A DNA stretch of 64,000 nt from Planctomycetales bacterium. Its GTDB lineage: Bacteria; Planctomycetota; Phycisphaerae; SM23-33. A model generated the notes under the pieces. It was not told where the DNA came from. It was given only the letters and a program-made list of their open reading frames with translations, and did no database searches. The position numbers were made by a program, and so were the translations under genes. Positions 5,055 through 63,327 of the stretch are shown in pieces (the stretch's first letter is position 1; every line of letters starts with the position of its first letter). The stretch is from positions 128,542 through 192,541 of the forward strand of contig JAUWNJ010000002.1 of assembly GCA_030612725.1 (NCBI GenBank), given 5' to 3'.

Positions 5055-7025
5055 ATGATGAACAGAGGCAGAAGATTTTCAGTTGGGTGGCACAGATGCT
5101 CCGGACAGGTGGTCGTGGTCCTGCTGTTGGGGATTACGCTGCTGGCCGGACTGGTGCTGTACGTGATAAATGTCGGCGACCAGGTCAATCGTCGCCTGGA
5201 AATGCAAAATGCCGCCGATTCAGCGGCAGTGTCGGGTTCGGCGTGGATGGCAAGGAGCATGAACGTCGTAGCCGGTAACAACGTCGCCATCACGCGTATG
5301 CTCGCACTTGTACCGCACCTGGATTCGTATCCGCTGGCGACGAAAATGACGCACGAAGAGGTTGCTTCATGGGAATCCGGTATCAACGATCAACTGGGGC
5401 GGGGAATCCCGGACAACTGGATGCGGGAAGGGCTTGAATCGCTGCGAGACAGAATATCAGAGCAGGCGAACATTCTCGGTTCGTTGGACGATTTGTTCAA
5501 CAACAGCGATTATGACGTCGCAACGCTGACGAACTGGTCGATTCGAGGATACGCAGCCCCGACGCCACACGGACAACTATGGCAGGCGGCTGAAAGCCTC
5601 GACGAATTCAGCCAGGCGACCGTCCTTTCTGCGCCTGTGCTAAGCCAAGCCAATGCCGCACGATACGGTAAGAGCGATTATGCCGAAACCGCTTTCATTA
5701 CGCCCGTCCTTCCGGAACTTCCGGCAAGGAGAACGGACTTCGGCGACTTTGAAAAGCCCGTCAAAAACGGCGTAATTCCCGACCGGGAATATCCCCACCG
5801 TCTTGGCCCATACGACCGCCTGTTCAAGTGGCGCAACTATCACTCCAGCGGCATCTATGAGCAGGGCCAATGGGTCGAGGGAACGCCCGGACACGGACTG
5901 ATCCAGGGCGGCGGCGGAAACGTCAATATCGGCGGACGCCGACACGGCAGCGGCGCTCACGGATATACCACAGACCCAGACGGACACTACTCGCGAAACC
6001 AGATTGGAACAATCCTTACAGGGTATTCGGTCTATGGCCCTTACAGTTGGATGATGAGCCGGGTTGGCCGTTACAGTTCCCGAGATTTACCGGATACGTA
6101 TTTCTATGATAATTACAGGCGAATCGCCGACACCAAACTTGGGTACATGTGGGGCAATCAGACGCTTAAGAAAATCCACTACCCCCGATGGTGGACCGAT
6201 TATCCTCAGGCTAAGACCATCGCGTCAGACTCCACCAACAGCGTTACGCGGACGATGTTTTACCTGGTGGAAATCCGTAGCCGGTATCCCAAAGGTTCTG
6301 CTGGTTGGCTTTCGCCCGGAAGTTACCGCACTAATGGCGATCACCCGACAGCAATCTGGATCAACGGCTGGGAAGACCCCGCCGGGTGGGGCATCACGAA
6401 AATCGCCAACCACATCTGGGAAGACAAGTATGATTACGAAACTACCGAGGACTGGGACATCGGAATCAGGATACAGTACGATTCGAACGGAGACCCCGTC
6501 TGGCAGAAGGTTTATATGGTAGCGCAGTACGTCTTCGGCGGTATCGACGCCGGCGGAGATGTGGAGATATCCAACCCGACCAACTACTGCCAAACATGTA
6601 ACGATGAAAGCGATCTGCCAGCTCCGATCCTGATGGACACCAGCGTCGGCGATTACGACATCGGTCAGCCTCACCACGACCTGGGCGTTCGCAGGAGCGT
6701 TTTTACCTATCTCGGTGTGGCTGGACGAAGCAGCGAACCGATGGTCTGGGCGAGACGCTTCGGAAAGGGGAACCCCTTCGGGCAGGTCGTAGCCGTCAGC
6801 CAGGCGGAGATATTCAACACTACCAGTTGGGGGCTTTGGACGCAGGACTGGAAGGCCAAACTTGTACCCGTTACGCAGTGGGGCGATTGGACCGAACGAA
6901 TGGCCAACGGCGCGATGGACGCCTCGGAAACCGGAGGACTTCTCGACCCGGAAACAGTGAGCGATTTCGCTGAATATCTTAACCGATTTGACGAGCAAAT
7001 GGTCGGAGAAATGCTGCACCATTAA
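5055..7025 (+). CDS. TadG-like pilus-assembly pseudopilin
   Basis: This 656-residue protein starts at ATG 5055 behind AAAGGAGGC, a strong ribosome binding site. The N-terminus has CSGQVVVVLLLGITLLAGL followed by VNRRLEMQNAADSAAVSGS; the run NAADSAAVSGS is typical of TadG-like (Flp pilus-assembly TadE/G-like) proteins. One N-terminal helix anchors a large periplasmic domain of about 600 residues, rich in Trp, Tyr and Gly (for example MWGNQ, WWTDYP), for which I recognise no family. No von Willebrand A-type MIDAS motif was seen. It lies between the kinase and a TadE-like gene. Confidence 0.72.
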   Translation: MMNRGRRFSVGWHRCSGQVVVVLLLGITLLAGLVLYVINVGDQVNRRLEMQNAADSAAVSGSAWMARSMNVVAGNNVAITRMLALVPHLDSYPLATKMTHEEVASWESGINDQLGRGIPDNWMREGLESLRDRISEQANILGSLDDLFNNSDYDVATLTNWSIRGYAAPTPHGQLWQAAESLDEFSQATVLSAPVLSQANAARYGKSDYAETAFITPVLPELPARRTDFGDFEKPVKNGVIPDREYPHRLGPYDRLFKWRNYHSSGIYEQGQWVEGTPGHGLIQGGGGNVNIGGRRHGSGAHGYTTDPDGHYSRNQIGTILTGYSVYGPYSWMMSRVGRYSSRDLPDTYFYDNYRRIADTKLGYMWGNQTLKKIHYPRWWTDYPQAKTIASDSTNSVTRTMFYLVEIRSRYPKGSAGWLSPGSYRTNGDHPTAIWINGWEDPAGWGITKIANHIWEDKYDYETTEDWDIGIRIQYDSNGDPVWQKVYMVAQYVFGGIDAGGDVEISNPTNYCQTCNDESDLPAPILMDTSVGDYDIGQPHHDLGVRRSVFTYLGVAGRSSEPMVWARRFGKGNPFGQVVAVSQAEIFNTTSWGLWTQDWKAKLVPVTQWGDWTERMANGAMDASETGGLLDPETVSDFAEYLNRFDEQMVGEMLHH

Positions 7026-7058
7026 CAATTGCCAATTGCCAATTTGCAATTGCCGATT
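7026..7058 (+). repeat. Short CAATTGC-type quasi-tandem element
   Basis: Immediately after the TAA of the TadG-like gene come units CAATTGC, CAATTGC, CAATTTG, CAATTGC, CGATTGA. Each unit is nearly self-complementary. The next gene begins a few bases further on, so the element fills the whole spacer. Related units occur at 48431-48448 and around 28874. Confidence 0.6.
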
Positions 7059-7072
7059 GAAGGATGAAGAAG

Positions 7073-7681
7073 ATGCTATCAAAACGAACAATTTCGCGGC
7101 GCGGGACGGCAATGGTGGAGTTTGTCATCGCTTTACCGTTTCTGGCAATCGTGTTGGGTCTGACATTTTTCTTCGGATGGGTGATGATGCACAAACACCA
7201 GGTACTTATCGCCAACCGATACAGCGCCTGGCAACGGGTGGATACCGGCGCCTGGCCAAGTGAAGGAAGCCTTAACGAACTTGCCTTCAATAACCGGGCA
7301 TCGAGTGTGTCGCTGTCGTCAGAGAACCCCGTCACCGACACCGTAAATGACCTGGTTACCGAAGCGGGTAACATGAGTCCTCGCGCGGAAGTTCTTGCCA
7401 AGGAACTTGTAACTGAACAATACCCTCCGGGCCGGCGAGCGCACGTATCGGCCGATTTCAATCCTCGTAAGGCGCTTTGGCAGAATGTTATGAACGACAT
7501 GTACGATATACATCACCGCCACGGACGCGAGGGCGTTACGTGGAGAAGGGGTGAAGCCTCCTGCTGGCCGGTGCTGCGAAACCAGTATTACTCCGAACTC
7601 GATGAGTCGCTGGAACGGATATCCTCACCTGCCGACCGAATGGCCGAGATGATTCGAGGACTTTACCTGGCCGGGTGGTAA
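7073..7681 (+). CDS. TadE family pseudopilin
   Basis: I chose ATG 7073 because GAAGGA lies 8 nt upstream; ATG 7064 is in frame but has no properly spaced ribosome binding site. The 202-residue product begins MLSKRTISRRGTAMVEFVIA: a basic leader, RRGTAMVEF (the TadE signature, with Glu at +5 after Gly), and one hydrophobic helix of about 25 residues. The remaining 150 residues are soluble and presumably periplasmic with no recognised domain. It would be processed by the TadV-type peptidase and act as a minor pilin. Confidence 0.72.
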   Translation: MLSKRTISRRGTAMVEFVIALPFLAIVLGLTFFFGWVMMHKHQVLIANRYSAWQRVDTGAWPSEGSLNELAFNNRASSVSLSSENPVTDTVNDLVTEAGNMSPRAEVLAKELVTEQYPPGRRAHVSADFNPRKALWQNVMNDMYDIHHRHGREGVTWRRGEASCWPVLRNQYYSELDESLERISSPADRMAEMIRGLYLAGW

Positions 7682-7690
7682 AAGCGGAAA

Positions 7691-7837
7691 GACAGGGACC
7701 AGGGATTAGGCAACACGAAGTGTCCCTATGGGAAAACAGAAACACAAAGTGTCCCTACGGGAAAACGGAACTTGAAACTGATAAACTGATGAACCGATCA
7801 ACCGATTTACCAATCAACCAGTCAACCAGTCAACCAG
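7691..7837 (+). repeat. Composite repeat: CAGGGACCAGGGATTAGG module plus AATCAACC module
   Basis: Three parts are visible. First, CAGGGACCAGGGATTAGG at 7693-7710. Second, two direct copies of a block containing AAGTGTCCCTATGGGAAAAC at 7713-7736 and 7743-7766, offset by 30 bp. Third, an 8-9-bp quasi-tandem run at 7775-7837 (AACTGATAA, ACTGATGAA, CCGATCAA, CCGATTTA, CCAATCAA, CCAGTCAA, CCAGTCAA). The first and third parts occur again in the same order at 52165-52270. The ORF of the following gene can be read backwards through the element but need not start there. Confidence 0.8.
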
Positions 7838-7872
7838 TTTGTTGGCGTGCTCGTGGTCTGGTACAATGGCGG

Positions 7873-8385
7873 ATGATGGTATTGGTTGTTGGTGGGGCGT
7901 GCGTGGCGCTTGGGACGATGTTGTTATACCGGAATTACAACCGGTCTAAGCCCGAACCTGTCCGCCGCTATGTCGGCGGAAGTTCCGGCTCGACGTCTGC
8001 GACAACACCCGTTAACCCGACGGACTTAGTGGCCAAACCACTGGCAGGAAGCGGGCTTGAAGTGCTTCGTGTCGGCGCGGATGATATTATCGCTCCGCCC
8101 GATGCCATAATGCATCACGCCATTCGAAGGAAAATGGCCGATGGCAGCGCTGATATCGTTACTTACACCGTGAAGGCGAAAATTGCAGATGTGGAAAAGT
8201 TTTACAGCGACCGGCTGACCAAAAACGGTTATAAATTTCTACAGCGGAAACCGGCAATGCAGCAGGGGGCTGTATCGTTGGTGTTCCTGCGAGATTCGCA
8301 ACGCTATAGCATTATGCTACGCTATACCGATAAGGAAAAGGAAACAGTAAAGATAGTTCTGGTAATGGCCCAAAATGACCGTTGA
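7873..8385 (+). CDS. Unknown single-pass membrane protein of the tad locus
   Basis: From ATG 7873 the product is 170 residues and starts with a membrane helix (MMVLVVGGACVALGTMLLY). A Ser/Gly/Thr-rich linker is followed by a soluble domain of about 110 residues with a predicted alpha/beta pattern (IVTYTVKAKIADVEKFYSDRL). The open frame extends back to 7675, but those 66 codons run through a dispersed repeat and read like repeat-derived peptide (DLPINQSTSQPV), so I do not include them. No family is recognised. Position just before cpaB suggests a role in pilus assembly. Confidence 0.6.
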   Translation: MMVLVVGGACVALGTMLLYRNYNRSKPEPVRRYVGGSSGSTSATTPVNPTDLVAKPLAGSGLEVLRVGADDIIAPPDAIMHHAIRRKMADGSADIVTYTVKAKIADVEKFYSDRLTKNGYKFLQRKPAMQQGAVSLVFLRDSQRYSIMLRYTDKEKETVKIVLVMAQNDR

Positions 8386-8414
8386 AAATCGGTCGTTCAT
8401 AAAGGGAGTACCTT

Positions 8415-9203
8415 ATGCCCGAGACAATCGTCTGGAATAAGAAACTATTGGTCGTATCGCTGATACTGGGGGTTTTGGCCGTTGCGATGTTCTACCTTTA
8501 TATTTCCGCTCAGGAGAAAAAACTTCGCGGCGATACGGTCGAGATACTCCAGTGGAGTCGAAGCCTCAGCGTCGGGGACGAGATATCCGCAGCGGATACG
8601 ACGGTTGCCAGGGTAAACTCGGCGACCACGGTAACAAAGGGTGTTCTGCGAAAAGCAAGCAAGGATGAATTCGTCGGAAAGCACGTAAGTCGCAACGTCA
8701 GCCGGGGCGATAAAGTCTATTACAAGGATATATTGGAAAGAAGTTCGGGCACACCGGCCGATGACATAACTCCGGGTATGCGGGGCTTGTCGCTGCGAGT
8801 AGATCCGAATTATACCCCCGGAAACATACTGCGGGTCGGTGGCAGGATAGATATTCTGGGCAGGGTCAGCCCCAGAGGCAAACCGGCGAAGACCTATACG
8901 CTTGTTCGGAATCTGCGCGTACTGGCCGTCGGCGGTCATGGACAGAAACCCGAAGAAACCATCGGGTCCAAACGCCGGCGGGGATACAACCCGGGAATAA
9001 GGGTTTATCGTTCCGTTACAGTTGAAGTCTCGCCGGAACTGGCTGAACAGATGGTGGACCTGCTTAGTCGCGTGCAGGGAAAGATATGGCTGACAGTGCG
9101 GAATCCCTCCGATGCACCGAAGAGAAAATCCGAGACAGGAATAAACAGTGAAGTGCTTTCGGTATTGTCCCAGGCACCGGCGAAAAAAGACAATCGACCT
9201 TGA
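8415..9203 (+). CDS. cpaB: Flp pilus assembly protein CpaB/RcpC
   Basis: This 262-residue protein begins with one membrane helix (residues about 10-28). A SAF/RcpC-type region follows: VEILQWSRSLSVGDEISAAD through SRGDKVYYKDIL near residues 35-110, then LRVDPNYTPGNILRVGGRID, a hallmark of CpaB proteins. The C-terminal part (VTVEVSPELAEQMVDLLSRV) is also typical. CpaB is a periplasmic, inner-membrane-anchored component thought to help the secretin assemble. ATG 8415 follows AAAGGGAG. It is followed by the pilus ATPase as in many tad loci. Confidence 0.85.
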   Translation: MPETIVWNKKLLVVSLILGVLAVAMFYLYISAQEKKLRGDTVEILQWSRSLSVGDEISAADTTVARVNSATTVTKGVLRKASKDEFVGKHVSRNVSRGDKVYYKDILERSSGTPADDITPGMRGLSLRVDPNYTPGNILRVGGRIDILGRVSPRGKPAKTYTLVRNLRVLAVGGHGQKPEETIGSKRRRGYNPGIRVYRSVTVEVSPELAEQMVDLLSRVQGKIWLTVRNPSDAPKRKSETGINSEVLSVLSQAPAKKDNRP

Positions 9204-54630: not shown

Positions 54631-55848
54631 TTATGCTCCGAATTTTTCGAGTTTTCCGGCGTGCGCCATTGCCAGTGGCATGAGTTCTTTTCCGGTGATG
54701 GTTCCGATCTCTCCGCTCCGGCAGGCGATTTCGTCGAATTTCCCAAGGCCGCCGCCACGGAGGTGCGGAGCCTTCATCAGTATCGGAACCGGATGCCAAC
54801 TGTGGGCCTTCATCGACGGCGGCGTCGAGTGGTCGCCGGTGATAATCAGCACGTCGGGGTCGGCCTTCAGCAGCGTCGGCAAGGCAGCGTCCATCTCTTC
54901 TATTCGCGCGATCTTTCCGGGCAGGTCGCCGTCCTCGCCTGTCTTGTCGGTGTATTTGAAGTGGGCGAATATGAAGGTGTGGTCGCCCATAGCCGCTACG
55001 GCCTCGGCGCAGATGTCGGCAGCGGTGGTCGGCTGGGATACGACCGGGATTCCCACCAGGCGGGCAACGCCTCGATACATCGGATAACCCGCCACCGCGG
55101 CAGGATTGAGTTTATACCGCTGGGGGAACGTAGGCCAATCAGGCCACTTGGCGAACCCGCGAGCGAGGATCATATTGGCCTGCGGTTCGTCAGCGAGGAT
55201 TTTTCGGACCTGGTTGATTACCTCCTCTGCGATTTTCGCGGTTTTGGATTTATCGTGCGGCCTCCTGGCCGGCGACAGTGCGGACACGCCGACAGCCTGC
55301 GGGTCGGTGTCGCCTATGTCGTCGTCAAGACCTTGGCCTCGAAGCACCATCAACGCCCGATGCTCAGCCACCGTCTCGAAGAGCACTTCGACACCGGCAG
55401 GCGGTTTGATGTCTTTGCGAATCTTTTCGAGGACTCGCTTATTTACGTCGTCGCCGATTCGTCCTGCCCGACGGTCGGTAACGTTTCCGTCGGCGTCGAT
55501 TGTGCAGAAGTTCAGCCGGGCGGCTACGTCGGTCTTTTCCAGGGGGAATTCAATCCCCAGCGCGCTGAGGACGCCTCGCCCTACCTGATATACCAGCGGG
55601 TCGTATCCGAACAGCGACAGATGCCCAGGGCCGGAGCCGGGGGTGATTCCAGTGGCAATTGGTTTGTGTTGGCCCAGCGCGCTTTTCGCCGCCAATGCGT
55701 CCATATTCGGCGTTTTCGCCTGCTGCAGACCCGTACCGGCTCCGTCGTTATCGCAATCGCCCACGCCGTCCATCACCAGCAGGACGATCCGCTTGTCGTT
55801 TTCAGCCGCCAGAGAAGAAATTACCTGTCCGTAAACGTCTTCATACAT
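54631..55848 (-). CDS. apgM: 2,3-bisphosphoglycerate-independent phosphoglycerate mutase, ApgM type
   Basis: The 405-residue enzyme interconverts 3- and 2-phosphoglycerate. Metal and nucleophile motifs: LLVMDGVGD, GSGPGHLSLFGYDP (nucleophilic Ser), AHFKYTDKTGEDGD and ITGDHSTPPSMKAHSWHPVP. These define the archaeal-type ApgM branch rather than bacterial GpmI. Its product is the substrate of enolase, whose unusual gene lies about 3.7 kb away on the same strand. Confidence 0.94.
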   Translation of the reverse strand: MYEDVYGQVISSLAAENDKRIVLLVMDGVGDCDNDGAGTGLQQAKTPNMDALAAKSALGQHKPIATGITPGSGPGHLSLFGYDPLVYQVGRGVLSALGIEFPLEKTDVAARLNFCTIDADGNVTDRRAGRIGDDVNKRVLEKIRKDIKPPAGVEVLFETVAEHRALMVLRGQGLDDDIGDTDPQAVGVSALSPARRPHDKSKTAKIAEEVINQVRKILADEPQANMILARGFAKWPDWPTFPQRYKLNPAAVAGYPMYRGVARLVGIPVVSQPTTAADICAEAVAAMGDHTFIFAHFKYTDKTGEDGDLPGKIARIEEMDAALPTLLKADPDVLIITGDHSTPPSMKAHSWHPVPILMKAPHLRGGGLGKFDEIACRSGEIGTITGKELMPLAMAHAGKLEKFGA

Positions 55849-58174: not shown

Positions 58175-58945
58175 TTACTTTAATGATTTCGCCACCATTT
58201 CGGCGATGCGCTTACCCGACAGCAGCATTCCGCCGAAGATCGGTCCCATCCGAGGACCGCCGAAAGTCGCGCAGACACTCATGCCCGTAACCCATAGCCT
58301 CGGATAAACCTCACCGGCCCGCTCAACCACAAAGGCTTCGCCGGCAGCGGCGTCCATCGGACCTTCGAGCCGACCATCGGCGTCGGTGCCCTTGAGCAGG
58401 CCTCGTCTGCGAACGGCTTCGACGATAACGGCTTCGTGCCCGGTGGCGTCTATGACCGCACCGGCGGAGAACATAATCGGATCGACCGGCAACGCGCCGG
58501 AAATCATCGAGCGATTCACCACCACGCCGGTAACTTCACCCTCGCTTAGACAGACATCTTCGACGGTCATAAGGTTGAGCATCACAGCCCCAGCCTGGAT
58601 CGCCTTGAGACAAAGCCCGCAGGCCAGTTCCACCGCGTCGGCGGTATGAAGGGCGTTTTCGCCGGGCTTGTGTCGGACGCCGAACTCGTCCAGGATGGCG
58701 ACGGCATGGTCCTGCACGACGATCTCGTTCATTCCGATTCCGCCGCCCCAGATACCACCGCCCGGCGAGAGTCGCTTCTCGATGATGGTTACCTTCAGAC
58801 CCGCTTTGGTCAAATCGTAAGCCGCCACCAGTCCCGACGGACCGGCTCCGACGATTATGACATCGCTCTGGAGACTACCGGTCAACTTCTTGTAATACTC
58901 GCCGACAATGGCAGCGGAAATCTGTGTGTTGTTGAATCCATCCAT
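58175..58945 (-). CDS. thi4: Thi4-type thiazole synthase
   Basis: The 256-residue protein has the FAD/NAD-binding GAGPSGLVAAYDLTKAGL, EKRLSPGGGIWGGGIGMN, a TGHEA motif and a C-terminal TGMSVCATFGGPRMGPIFGG, all typical of Thi4, which builds the thiazole part of thiamine from NAD, glycine and sulphide. The suicidal Cys of the yeast enzyme is absent. At the place where archaeal sulphide-using enzymes have His-Val-Asp-Pro this protein has Pro-Val-Asp-Pro. ATG 58945. Confidence 0.88.
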   Translation of the reverse strand: MDGFNNTQISAAIVGEYYKKLTGSLQSDVIIVGAGPSGLVAAYDLTKAGLKVTIIEKRLSPGGGIWGGGIGMNEIVVQDHAVAILDEFGVRHKPGENALHTADAVELACGLCLKAIQAGAVMLNLMTVEDVCLSEGEVTGVVVNRSMISGALPVDPIMFSAGAVIDATGHEAVIVEAVRRRGLLKGTDADGRLEGPMDAAAGEAFVVERAGEVYPRLWVTGMSVCATFGGPRMGPIFGGMLLSGKRIAEMVAKSLK

Positions 58946-59096: not shown

Positions 59097-59432
59097 TTAC
59101 TCGACCAATTTCAATTCGTTGTTCTTGAATTGTTCGAGTGCGTTTTTGATCGTTCCCGTCGCGCCGGTGTAAATTTTTACACCGCCGGCCTGTAGCGTAC
59201 TCTGTGCTTTAGGTCCCACGTTTCCGGTGATGACGGCTTCGACGCCGAATGCGACGACATTTTGCCCGGACTGGATGCCCGCACCGTGTGTGGCGTTGAG
59301 GTTTTGGGAATTATCATGGGCGGTAAATTCGCCGGTATCAGTATCGACGACTATAAACTGCACCGCTCTTCCGAAACGCGGATCGGCCTGACTTTCCAGG
59401 TCGGGGCCTTGGGACGTTACTGCAACTTTCAT
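59097..59432 (-). CDS. NifX/NifB-type dinitrogenase cofactor-associated family protein
   Basis: This 111-residue single-domain protein has the family pattern: MKVAVTSQGPDLESQADPRF then GRAVQFIVVDTDTGEF, HGAGIQSGQNVVAFGVEAVI and GNVGPKAQSTLQAGGVKIYT. Stand-alone members occur widely in anaerobes without nitrogenase, and their role is unclear; iron-sulphur or metal cofactor binding is presumed. No nif gene is in the window. ATG 59432 follows GAGGAG. Confidence 0.88.
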   Translation of the reverse strand: MKVAVTSQGPDLESQADPRFGRAVQFIVVDTDTGEFTAHDNSQNLNATHGAGIQSGQNVVAFGVEAVITGNVGPKAQSTLQAGGVKIYTGATGTIKNALEQFKNNELKLVE

Positions 59433-59553: not shown

Positions 59554-62013
59554 CTACGCGGTTGCAGCGGCTACTTTTTTGACGCCGTAGAGCGCTTCGC
59601 GGTCGATATTTCCTTCGAGTTTCCTGAGGATGTCCGGCAGTTCGACGCCTTCACGAGCGGCGATGAGGCGTCCCAAAGCCAGTGAGGCAGAGAGAATCGC
59701 GTTCATGCCGAGGTTCGCCTTTCGCTGCATAACGGCGATCTGCTCGTCGGCACCGGCGTTTTCGGCGAGTTTGTTTCGTTCGACGGCTGCCTTCCGTTCC
59801 AGTTCGAGCAGTTGGGTGTCCACGTCGATCAGGCTGCCGACCTCGTCGAGCGTTTTACCCTCGAACAGCGGGGCAATGTACTTTTCGACGTTATCGACGG
59901 CATTGAGGCATCCCTTGCCTTTGTATCGCTGCGCCCGATGCCAGAGTTCGGAGAGTTTCTCATCGCCCCTGACCTTTATGGCGTCGTTGGTAACTTCCTT
60001 GTTGAACTTGTATGTTTTCCCGCCGTCGCCGCTGCTGAACAGGTCGGGATGCTTGCTGGTGATTTCGGACTTCTCGATAATGCTATCGACCAGGTGGCTT
60101 GCTTCGTCGCTCCCTGCCGAGGTTCCCAGCGGCGTCGCGCCGGTGAATGTTACGCCGTTCTCCAGGCGGACGCTTACGCCGACGGTTGGGATACCGGCGT
60201 TGGTGGCCTCTTCGCGGGCCAGGATCGCCGCGATTTTCAGGTCGCCCGACATCGGACGAGTTACCTTGATGCCCTTGGTAATCATGTTCATCAGTTCGGT
60301 AATCCGGGCGTATTTGATCAGGCGCTCGGTATTCGACCCACCGCCGCACTTGAGAGCCATCGCATCGACGGCGAAGCCGATGTCGGCCTCCATCGTGTCG
60401 TTGGGACTCTTGGAGCGGTGAGAAACAACCAGCGCCGCTCCCCTGCTGGTGGCGGCGTGAGTCGCCAGAAGCGTCTCGCAAAGCGAACCGATCTGGTTGG
60501 CTTTGATAAGGACGGTGTTCATCAGGCCTTCTTCGATGGCGTTGATGATGTTGGTGTCCTTGGTGGTAACCAGGTCGTCGCCGATGATGAAGATTTTGTC
60601 GCCCAGTTCCTTCATCATCATCTTCCATCCTTCGGGGTCGTCCTCGGCATGTCCGTCCTCGATGGAGACGATTGGATACTTTGCGACCCAGTCCTTGTAC
60701 ATTTCGACGAGTTCTTCGGAGTTCATCACCTTGGGTTCTTCCGCCCGCCAGAAAGAATACTGTCCGATGGCGTCGGCCCGTCCGGTCTCTTCGCGGTAGG
60801 CGATGCTCAGTTCGGTAGCGGCTGGGTCAAGCGCAAGGGCTACATCCACGCCCGGAACGAACCCGCACTCCTCAATGGCCTGTACCGCGACCTTCAGGGC
60901 GCGTTCTTCGGGGATACGGTCATCGTCGCGTTTGCTGTAAGCGCCGACCATTCCGCCTTCCAGGCCGATGCCGACGAAGTTCATTCCCGCCGAGTCCTGA
61001 ACAATCTGGATGACCCGGCTCTGGAGTGCGTTCGTCATCCGCTGGGCCTCGACATAATCCTTGGCCGAGAGCGGCAGGAACATGAATTCCTGGAATGACA
61101 GGTTTCCGCCCTGCTCTTCTGTATGTCGTCCGCCCATGAGGCAGTTTCTGAATTGCCAGGGCGCGCGGATGGTCTTTCCATCGACTTCGATTTCGCGGAG
61201 GCGGGTTTCCAGCATCTTCTTTTTGTTGCCGGCAGTGTCCCACTCGCCGGTAGCGGCTGCACGTCGCGCTTCGGCCGCTTTGGCGGCAGCACCCGACAGA
61301 CGGGCGCGGTAGGCCTTGAGCGAACCGCTGTCGGCCAGGAACCGGTCAAGCAGCGCGACGATACCGATTGCACCAAGCAACCTGCCTGCGATGATTACGG
61401 GGACACCCCACCCGATACCATTACCCAGGAACGGGGCTATGCCCACAAAAACCAGTATTATCCCCAGCGGAAGCGTCGCCATAGACAACTTGGCGCTGGT
61501 CGCGGGACCGGCAGCCGATACCGCAAGGTTCTGGGTTTTAACGTCCGGGAAGAAGTTACCTGCCTCTTTCTTGATACCGGGGAACTTTCCGAACGGAATG
61601 AGCACAATCGCCTTGAGATACAGGCCGAACTTATTCGTCGCCAGTTGCCTGTTTGCGTCTTCGAGATATTCCGGGCGGAGGTTGTTTGTCTTGACCGCCG
61701 CCAGATAGTGTCCGAGTTCGTGGACGGCGATATTAATATGGTATGACAGGTACAGGATAATCGCCGAGATAATCACCTCGCCGTGGGCGGGATTGAACAT
61801 GAAGTTCAGCACCTTCCAGTTGCTCCATCCGCCGCCTGTCAGCATTAACAGGCTCGACAGGAACGCCACGTGGAAGGAGACGAGTTTATGGTTGGCGATA
61901 ACCCATCCTTTTTCCAGCAGTCCGGAGCGATACGCCGGTCTGCGGGTGCGGTGAAGTTTTCCGATAAATCCTACGATACCTTCATATATCTTTGCCGATA
62001 CGTTACTGAACAT
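59554..62013 (-). CDS. eno: Site-2-protease-like membrane domain fused to a circularly permuted enolase
   Basis: One unbroken 819-codon frame; ATG 62013 follows AAGGAA. Residues 1-225 are a polytopic domain with HELGH at 98-102 in a membrane helix, then AVSAAGPATSAK (like the S2P third-helix motif) and LLDRFLADSG. A basic, Ala-rich linker (230-280) follows. Residues about 285-588 are the enolase catalytic barrel: H297, E309 (FQEF), E352 (LEGG), D396, E452 (SIEDG), D479 (GDDL), K504 (KANQIGS), H532-R533-S534 and K555. Residues about 590-805 are the enolase capping domain, normally N-terminal: AREEATNAGIPTVGVSV, the loop GTSAG with S632, and NLGMNAILSASLALGRL. These residues match yeast H159, E168, E211, D246, E295, D320, K345, H373-S375, K396 and S39. 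The enzyme is thus likely active (2-phosphoglycerate to phosphoenolpyruvate) but membrane-bound. Protease activity is unproven. Confidence 0.93.
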   Translation of the reverse strand: MFSNVSAKIYEGIVGFIGKLHRTRRPAYRSGLLEKGWVIANHKLVSFHVAFLSSLLMLTGGGWSNWKVLNFMFNPAHGEVIISAIILYLSYHINIAVHELGHYLAAVKTNNLRPEYLEDANRQLATNKFGLYLKAIVLIPFGKFPGIKKEAGNFFPDVKTQNLAVSAAGPATSAKLSMATLPLGIILVFVGIAPFLGNGIGWGVPVIIAGRLLGAIGIVALLDRFLADSGSLKAYRARLSGAAAKAAEARRAAATGEWDTAGNKKKMLETRLREIEVDGKTIRAPWQFRNCLMGGRHTEEQGGNLSFQEFMFLPLSAKDYVEAQRMTNALQSRVIQIVQDSAGMNFVGIGLEGGMVGAYSKRDDDRIPEERALKVAVQAIEECGFVPGVDVALALDPAATELSIAYREETGRADAIGQYSFWRAEEPKVMNSEELVEMYKDWVAKYPIVSIEDGHAEDDPEGWKMMMKELGDKIFIIGDDLVTTKDTNIINAIEEGLMNTVLIKANQIGSLCETLLATHAATSRGAALVVSHRSKSPNDTMEADIGFAVDAMALKCGGGSNTERLIKYARITELMNMITKGIKVTRPMSGDLKIAAILAREEATNAGIPTVGVSVRLENGVTFTGATPLGTSAGSDEASHLVDSIIEKSEITSKHPDLFSSGDGGKTYKFNKEVTNDAIKVRGDEKLSELWHRAQRYKGKGCLNAVDNVEKYIAPLFEGKTLDEVGSLIDVDTQLLELERKAAVERNKLAENAGADEQIAVMQRKANLGMNAILSASLALGRLIAAREGVELPDILRKLEGNIDREALYGVKKVAAATA

Positions 62014-62199
62014 TTTTGATTCCTTTTTCCTGAGTCCTGATACCCACTTTCATTGCTCTCCAGACGCCATTCAGCCGAAAAGCCTGTAAAAGACGGCGAT
62101 ACTATCCCATTATCGTCAGCAAATTGCAATACTAGAGTTGAGACAGTATTAAAGTTTCTTTCCACCAGCCGGTACGCCGATACAATAAAATGGATTTAT

Positions 62200-63327
62200 A
62201 TGTCGCAGACGATATCCAACAATTCGACGGAAACTCCGGGAAAGGTTCCTCCGAAACCTGTTCACGTGTGCCTGGTGGCGGGGCATGAGACGCTGCGCAA
62301 CCTCGGCCCGGTGGTACGGCATACAATCGTCGGGCTATTGGACGAACCGTTGCCGGTAACACTGCTTTGCCCAGTCAAGGCGGACATCGCGGACATCCCC
62401 ACCCCGCCGGTGCAGATTATGGGGTACGACCTGACTCGCATCCCGTTCCTCCGTAAGCGGGCGTTTGAAGCCCTCACCGAACAGGTCACCCAAGCCGGTG
62501 TGTCCCTGTTTCATGCCCTTGACACCGACGCTGCGGAACTGACCGGGAAACTGGCGGACGGAATTGGCGTCAATTACATCATCGGTGCATATTCGCTCAG
62601 CAGGGATGTGCGAACGCTGGATATGCACTGCCGGGCAGTCACAGCCGCCAGCGAACCGATCCGCCAACGCCTGCTGAGTTCGCACGTCGGACCCGAAGAA
62701 ATGATTCATCTGCTTCGGCCTGGGGTTCACCAAGCCGACGAGGCTACGTGCTTCATAAACCCGTCCCACGCGACAGCCATAATCGCCGGCGGAGATTTCA
62801 GCAAATACAGACCCTTCGCTACGGTGCTACAGGCATTCGCCAAACTGCAAAACCAGCAGCGTGATTGCGTGTTCTTCCTCGTGGGCGACGGACCTGGAGA
62901 AACACGGCTCCGACATCTGGCCGAAAAACTCAACCTGATGGAGAACCTGACCTTCGTGGACCGCCAGGGCGCAGACGCTCTGAAGGGGATTCTCCGTGCC
63001 GCCGACATATTCATCTCGCCGACACCGTCGAACCGCCTGGAAATAGAACTGCTCTCGGCAATGGCAGCCGGTGTTCCGATTATCGACGCAGGCGCAAAGG
63101 CGTGCGATTTTATTATCCCCGATGAAACAGCCCTGACGTACCAATCCGGAAATATCGGCGACCTGTCCGACAAACTCGCCGCCCTGATGGACAATCACCC
63201 CACATCCAGACAACTGGCTGAAAACGCTCTGGCCTACCTCCGCGAAAACCACTCGCCGGCAAAAATGGTCAGGCAACTCATCGACCTGTACTACGCCGTT
63301 ACAGGAAAAAAAAGGCCTGTGAATTGA
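62200..63327 (+). CDS. GT4-type glycosyltransferase
   Basis: The 375-residue protein, from ATG 62200, shows the two-domain GT-B pattern: an N-terminal half (VHVCLVAGHETLRNLGPVVR) and a C-terminal half with FFLVGDGPGETRLRHLAEKL, LKGILRAADIFISPTPSNRL, EIELLSAMAAGVPIIDAGA and a DLSDKLAALMDN ending typical of Glycos_transf_1. The usual E-x7-E appears as E-x-E (RLEIELLSAMAAG). The acceptor is unknown. It is divergent from the enolase fusion. Confidence 0.82.
   Translation: MSQTISNNSTETPGKVPPKPVHVCLVAGHETLRNLGPVVRHTIVGLLDEPLPVTLLCPVKADIADIPTPPVQIMGYDLTRIPFLRKRAFEALTEQVTQAGVSLFHALDTDAAELTGKLADGIGVNYIIGAYSLSRDVRTLDMHCRAVTAASEPIRQRLLSSHVGPEEMIHLLRPGVHQADEATCFINPSHATAIIAGGDFSKYRPFATVLQAFAKLQNQQRDCVFFLVGDGPGETRLRHLAEKLNLMENLTFVDRQGADALKGILRAADIFISPTPSNRLEIELLSAMAAGVPIIDAGAKACDFIIPDETALTYQSGNIGDLSDKLAALMDNHPTSRQLAENALAYLRENHSPAKMVRQLIDLYYAVTGKKRPVN

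Follow-up and report, generated by a model that had tools for sequence, protein, structure and literature searches.

Few enzymes are as conserved as enolase, and a planctomycete gene in which its two domains appear in exchanged order, behind a membrane domain resembling a metalloprotease, raises the question of whether such an arrangement is real and, if so, whether it can serve as the enolase of a cell. The gene lies in a window of 64,000 nucleotides (the whole stretch of DNA analyzed here) from the genome of a Planctomycetales bacterium, hereafter the host. It is a single unbroken ORF that begins with ATG, ends with TAG and encodes 819 aa; sequence inspection shows an AAGGA-type ribosome site 5-13 bases 5' of the ATG. 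Its product consists of an M50-like four-helix membrane domain, followed by the enolase barrel and finally by the enolase cap (Table 1). An uninterrupted frame with this order had been claimed in an earlier note made from the sequence alone, and both the ORF and the Pfam matches bear it out. To our knowledge, barrel-then-cap is the opposite of the order in every known enolase, and we know of no natural enolase that is circularly permuted, membrane-fused or fused to an M50 domain. In the open papers to which our literature search was confined, neither a permuted enolase nor an enolase-M50 fusion is described.

Both enolase models of Pfam are matched well above their cut-offs, Enolase_C with 198.6 bits against 21.5 and Enolase_N, as two stretches within residues ~594-792, with 51.4 bits against 35, while Peptidase_M50 (residues 93-189) reaches 24.4 bits, under its gathering cut-off of 27.2. 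The protein also scores 245.8 bits with the NCBIfam enolase equivalog TIGR01060, below the cut-off of 300, partly because the reversed domain order splits the match into three pieces that the model is unable to span. The cap-before-barrel order of enolases is thus reversed here.

Table 1. Features of the permuted enolase gene, of its glycolytic neighbour in the window and of the PPDK-like genes at other loci
Feature	Coordinates	Strand	Basis
Complete permuted enolase gene (819 aa): M50-like membrane domain, then barrel, then cap	59554..62013	-	Single ORF; Pfam; same order in homologues
Residues 1-267: invariant GWVIANHK segment, four predicted membrane helices, HELGH 98-102, AVSAAGP 164-170, D223, helical linker	61213..62013	-	Pfam; profile-profile match; charge pattern; DSSP of model
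Residues 285-576: enolase C-terminal TIM barrel	60286..61161	-	Enolase_C, E 1.8e-58; invariant residues
Residues 577-590: short linker from barrel C-terminus to cap N-terminus (permutation junction)	60244..60285	-	Alignments
Residues 591-806: cap (enolase N-terminal domain), with S632 and an inserted stretch at ~645-690	59596..60243	-	Enolase_N, 51.4 bits; in 42/42; alignment with ordinary enolases
apgM-type 2,3-bisphosphoglycerate-independent phosphoglycerate mutase (preceding glycolytic step)	54631..55848	-	NCBIfam PRK04135, 521 bits (cut-off 468)
PPDK-like genes	L041:10526-13231, L042:3268-6075, L070:2338-7640, L083:4149-6827, L063:1677-4394, L165-L169		Neighbours of permuted enolase

The fusion was at first seen in one window only, as would be expected of an assembly chimera or a chance fusion of unrelated genes, an explanation that we now regard as exceedingly improbable. 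The earlier note had suggested looking for the same order in related genomes, and we found it at about 60 independent loci (44-96% identity), some on contigs of 0.1-0.8 Mb, which contradicts an assembly join inside the gene. Searching 60 related genomes with the protein recovered the fused permuted gene in eight, belonging to six genera including that of the window, at ~70-96% identity. A scan of GTDB species genomes gave 53 loci, spanning Phycisphaerae, Sedimentisphaerales, other Planctomycetota and Acidobacteriota/Terriglobia, as well as MAGs labelled Deltaproteobacteria, Margulisbacteria/WOR-1/Saganbacteria, Fermentibacteria and Verrucomicrobiota; MAG taxon labels can be wrong, but the breadth across phyla is nonetheless clear. 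Five further Acidobacteriota-class loci, located on contigs as long as 800 kb, were obtained via a different query. A viral origin was rejected, no relatives being found on viral contigs. Moreover, substitutions between the window gene and its homologue at locus L034 are mostly silent (dN/dS 0.13 overall, 0.087 for the enolase half and 0.18 for the N-terminal domain), and both halves are under strong purifying selection. Together with the independent loci, this selection rules out an assembly artefact.

The enolase half retains the catalytic positions of an enolase. Residue conservation was assessed over 42 full-length homologues, all of which match both enolase Pfam models. All 12 catalytic and metal positions are invariant in the 42 sequences, namely S632, which is located in the displaced cap, H297, E309, E352, D396, E452, D479, K504, H532-R533-S534 and K555, which we take to correspond to S39, H159, E168, E211, D246, E295, D320, K345, H373-R374-S375 and K396 of yeast enolase. 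The catalytic residues named in the earlier note are therefore all present, and its assignment of residues 590-805 to the enolase N-terminal domain holds in every homologue. The structure prediction that it had called for yielded a single, confidently predicted fold for this half: template-free AlphaFold2 reached pLDDT 84 and pTM 0.80 for the full chain, and pLDDT 89.7 and pTM 0.90 when residues 268-813 were modelled by themselves. These scores indicate a well-defined cap-barrel arrangement in the predicted model of residues 268-813, with the caveat that the network may be reproducing an enolase fold learnt during training. In Foldseek comparisons, the barrel matches solved enolase crystal structures at about 2.1-3 A, with about 28-36% identity over the barrel in the structure-based alignment; as Foldseek aligns in sequence order, the cap cannot be credited together with the barrel.

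The permuted protein thus shares with ordinary enolases (phosphopyruvate hydratase, EC 4.2.1.11; Pfam PF03952 and PF00113) both domains, all catalytic and Mg-binding residues and a predicted single fold. However, it differs from them not only in its barrel-then-cap order and membrane fusion, but also in signatures outside the active site: where the ordinary form has DSRGNPT it reads ATNAGIPT, no C-terminal tail follows the last barrel helix, some 40 aa are inserted in the cap behind the S632 loop, and H297 and D396 are each followed by a longer loop. These alterations count against a bona fide enolase. Several of the altered sites fall where ordinary enolases dimerise, so the oligomer of the permuted form may differ. 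Length also varies within the family, the barrel-cap linker being ~45 aa longer in most Phycisphaerae homologues than in the window protein. Phycisphaerae versions have about 60 extra residues, and those of Margulisbacteria (L063, L070, L083) ~270 at the C-terminus, without a Pfam match.

Concerning the membrane half, the earlier note had correctly placed a polytopic region with HELGH at the N-terminus, but its proposed end at residue ~225 is too early, as the M50-like domain and its helical linker reach ~270. Four hydrophobic helices follow the GWVIANHK-type segment, and HELGH sits in a membrane helix (residues 78-108 by DSSP of the model). Peptidase_M50 is matched weakly by 36 of the 42 members. 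In a profile-profile comparison with eight genuine M50 proteases of related genomes, hhalign gave 92% probability (E 6.7e-7), pairing HELGH with HExxH and AVSAAGP with the M50 VSxAGP motif. D223, the candidate third ligand, is in an LLDR stretch outside the aligned part, and its motif is LDR or FDF. Positive charges are found at the N-terminus, in the loop that follows HELGH and C-terminal to helix 4, the two remaining loops having few. By the positive-inside rule, this pattern predicts a cytoplasmic position for the two termini, the candidate zinc site and the enolase.

The N-terminal domain shares with Site-2/SpoIVFB-type metalloproteases (Pfam PF02163, M50) an HExxH in a membrane helix, the AGP motif, a candidate ligand Asp downstream at a helix end and a predicted cytoplasm-facing site. 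In contrast to these proteases, it scores weakly, and it is always N-terminal to a permuted enolase: no free-standing relatives were recognised among the matches listed from 246 genomes of the phylum and 297 of the class, two weak partial hits and one remnant excepted, although very distant ones may have escaped this listing, and a search of PDB sequences with its profile returned nothing relevant. A degenerate membrane anchor without catalysis would explain the sub-threshold Pfam score, the replacement of the usual LDG motif by LDR or FDF and the faster evolution of this domain relative to the enolase half (dN/dS 0.18 vs 0.09, against L034), and would be compatible with a working enolase. Yet H98, E99, H102 and D223, which occupy the M50-type positions, are invariant in all 42 sequences, as are H42, H48 and H92, across several phyla. 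Such conservation is unlikely for a simple anchor, and the invariant zinc-site residues make this option the less favoured of the two raised in the earlier note, possible but somewhat doubtful. With a complete candidate zinc site predicted to face the cytoplasm, it is more likely that the M50 domain is an active or formerly active peptidase.

To place the permuted form among enolases, we used a tree of cap and barrel, in which the 42 permuted sequences form one clade (support 0.998), with none falling among 39 ordinary ones, and a long branch separates the two. Most simply, a single permutation would have occurred and then spread across phyla. Within the permuted clade, the window's own clade groups with Acidobacteriota forms (support 0.953), which fits a transfer.

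The permuted and the ordinary enzyme do not co-occur in the family of the host, where nine genomes (the host included) have the permuted form, 20 others the ordinary one, none both, and six neither. One family member estimated to be 90% complete (G024) has neither form at an E-value of 0.001. The host genome, which is 96% complete, has Enolase_C and Enolase_N only in the permuted gene, and the second ordinary eno that the earlier note had proposed to look for was detected neither there nor in the eight relatives carrying the fusion; as all genomes examined are MAG-type assemblies, this absence rests on completeness estimates. Two chromosome-level assemblies, CP070678 and CP070675, also have the permuted enolase only, though they cannot be claimed as closed genomes, sister records of the same series containing 100-N gaps. 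Over a wider range, 17 of the 44 homologue genomes with a match have a single enolase match, and at least 22 also carry a full ordinary enolase.

The host genome encodes pyruvate kinase and two apgM-type phosphoglycerate mutases, which are used instead of the absent iPGM. One of these lies in the window, 3.7 kb downstream of the permuted enolase and on the same strand, and the second (C27), elsewhere in the genome, is close to an ordinary RseP-like M50 gene. The enolase step falls between apgM and pyruvate kinase, so the permuted protein is the sole candidate seen for it. Around the fusion, a GT4-like glycosyltransferase (62053-63327, +) is divergent from it and conserved alongside in L034-L037 and L045. 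Directly downstream are genes for a NifX/MrpORP-like protein (59097-59432, -), with a homologue downstream in L034 and L035 too, and for a Thi4-type sulfide-dependent thiazole synthase (58175-58945, -). Conserved neighbours at Phycisphaerae loci (clusters 1, 2, 5-11) resembled common housekeeping genes or antisense frames.

These data suggest that the protein is most probably a functional enolase, held on the cytoplasmic side of the membrane, that in the host lineage has displaced the cytosolic enzyme. It would be a bona fide enolase, interconverting 2-phosphoglycerate and PEP, with barrel and cap exchanged. The cap would fold onto the barrel and supply the mobile catalytic loop with S632, giving an ordinary active site. 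The N-terminal site-2-protease-like domain would anchor the protein in the cytoplasmic membrane with the catalytic half in the cytoplasm, and might in addition clip or control proteins, perhaps releasing the enolase itself. In the host and its close relatives, the permuted form would have replaced the ordinary one and serve glycolysis/gluconeogenesis. Its activity as an enzyme, its place in the membrane and any role as a protease are inferred, as is its fold in the cell. Presumably the chemistry of the protein is ordinary, and its architecture, location and phylogenetic behaviour are not.

In the genomes that keep an ordinary enolase beside the permuted one, the latter may do something else. 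The main rival to a working enolase is accordingly that the enolase half is a neofunctionalised enzyme of the enolase superfamily, or a sensor of 2-phosphoglycerate/PEP that signals to the M50 protease, so that glycolytic flux would be sensed by regulated proteolysis. This idea is attractive where the two enolases co-occur, and the long branch, the invariant M50 site and a constant neighbour in two phyla agree with it; nonetheless, we consider it quite unlikely, given that no enolase catalytic residue varies, that the permuted form is the sole enolase in the window's clade and the single match in many homologue genomes, and that the host has both pyruvate kinase and apgM.

The constant neighbour is a gene for a protein of ~900 aa resembling pyruvate, phosphate dikinase (PPDK), which adjoins the permuted enolase at 13 of 13 loci checked in Acidobacteriota, where the two genes are convergent, and Margulisbacteria, where they are divergent. 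Over about 480 aa (residues 148-632), this protein can be aligned with the regions of PPDK that bind the nucleotide and carry the phospho-His (E about 1e-21), and it has an invariant His-Val at the position of the catalytic His region. In contrast to PPDK, the TSHA motif is altered and no PEP/pyruvate barrel is detectable. Among 42 genomes searched, close homologues of this protein occur only where the permuted enolase occurs, and beside it. Searching 250 Acidobacteriota-class genomes with the PPDK-like protein alone gave five new genomes, all five with the permuted enolase adjacent and convergent, and the predicted association thus held in new genomes. In the host genome, matches to the PPDK-like profile are at the level of ordinary PPDK only, and the neighbour is absent. 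The WOR-1 genome has the PPDK-like gene duplicated head to head, and enolase and PPDK-type genes of the ordinary kind lie within about 13 kb. In the planctomycete G124 (L119/L170, about 6568-8507), a truncated PPDK-like gene is followed without a break by the N-terminal part of the permuted enolase, likewise truncated and in antisense, which may reflect a joint deletion of the two genes or a join in the assembly.

A more far-reaching version of the working-enolase reading would have the membrane-integral permuted enzyme replace the cytosolic one in the lineage, an active M50 domain in the same chain couple the glycolytic state to intramembrane proteolysis, and the PPDK-like partner complete a membrane-bound PEP-handling module in Acidobacteriota and Margulisbacteria. 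Taken as a whole, we hold this version to be rather unlikely.

The family indicates that an enzyme at the core of glycolysis can have its domains swapped, and that a cell can come to have the swapped form as its sole enolase. Through it, the effects of permutation on folding, dimerisation and catalysis could be studied in natural proteins. Annotation pipelines that expect an ordinary enolase would miss or mislabel the permuted form, and would score such genomes as enolase-negative. Finally, the M50-like fusion and the constant PPDK-like neighbour in two phyla suggest a PEP module or flux sensor located at the membrane, of a kind that the papers searched do not describe.
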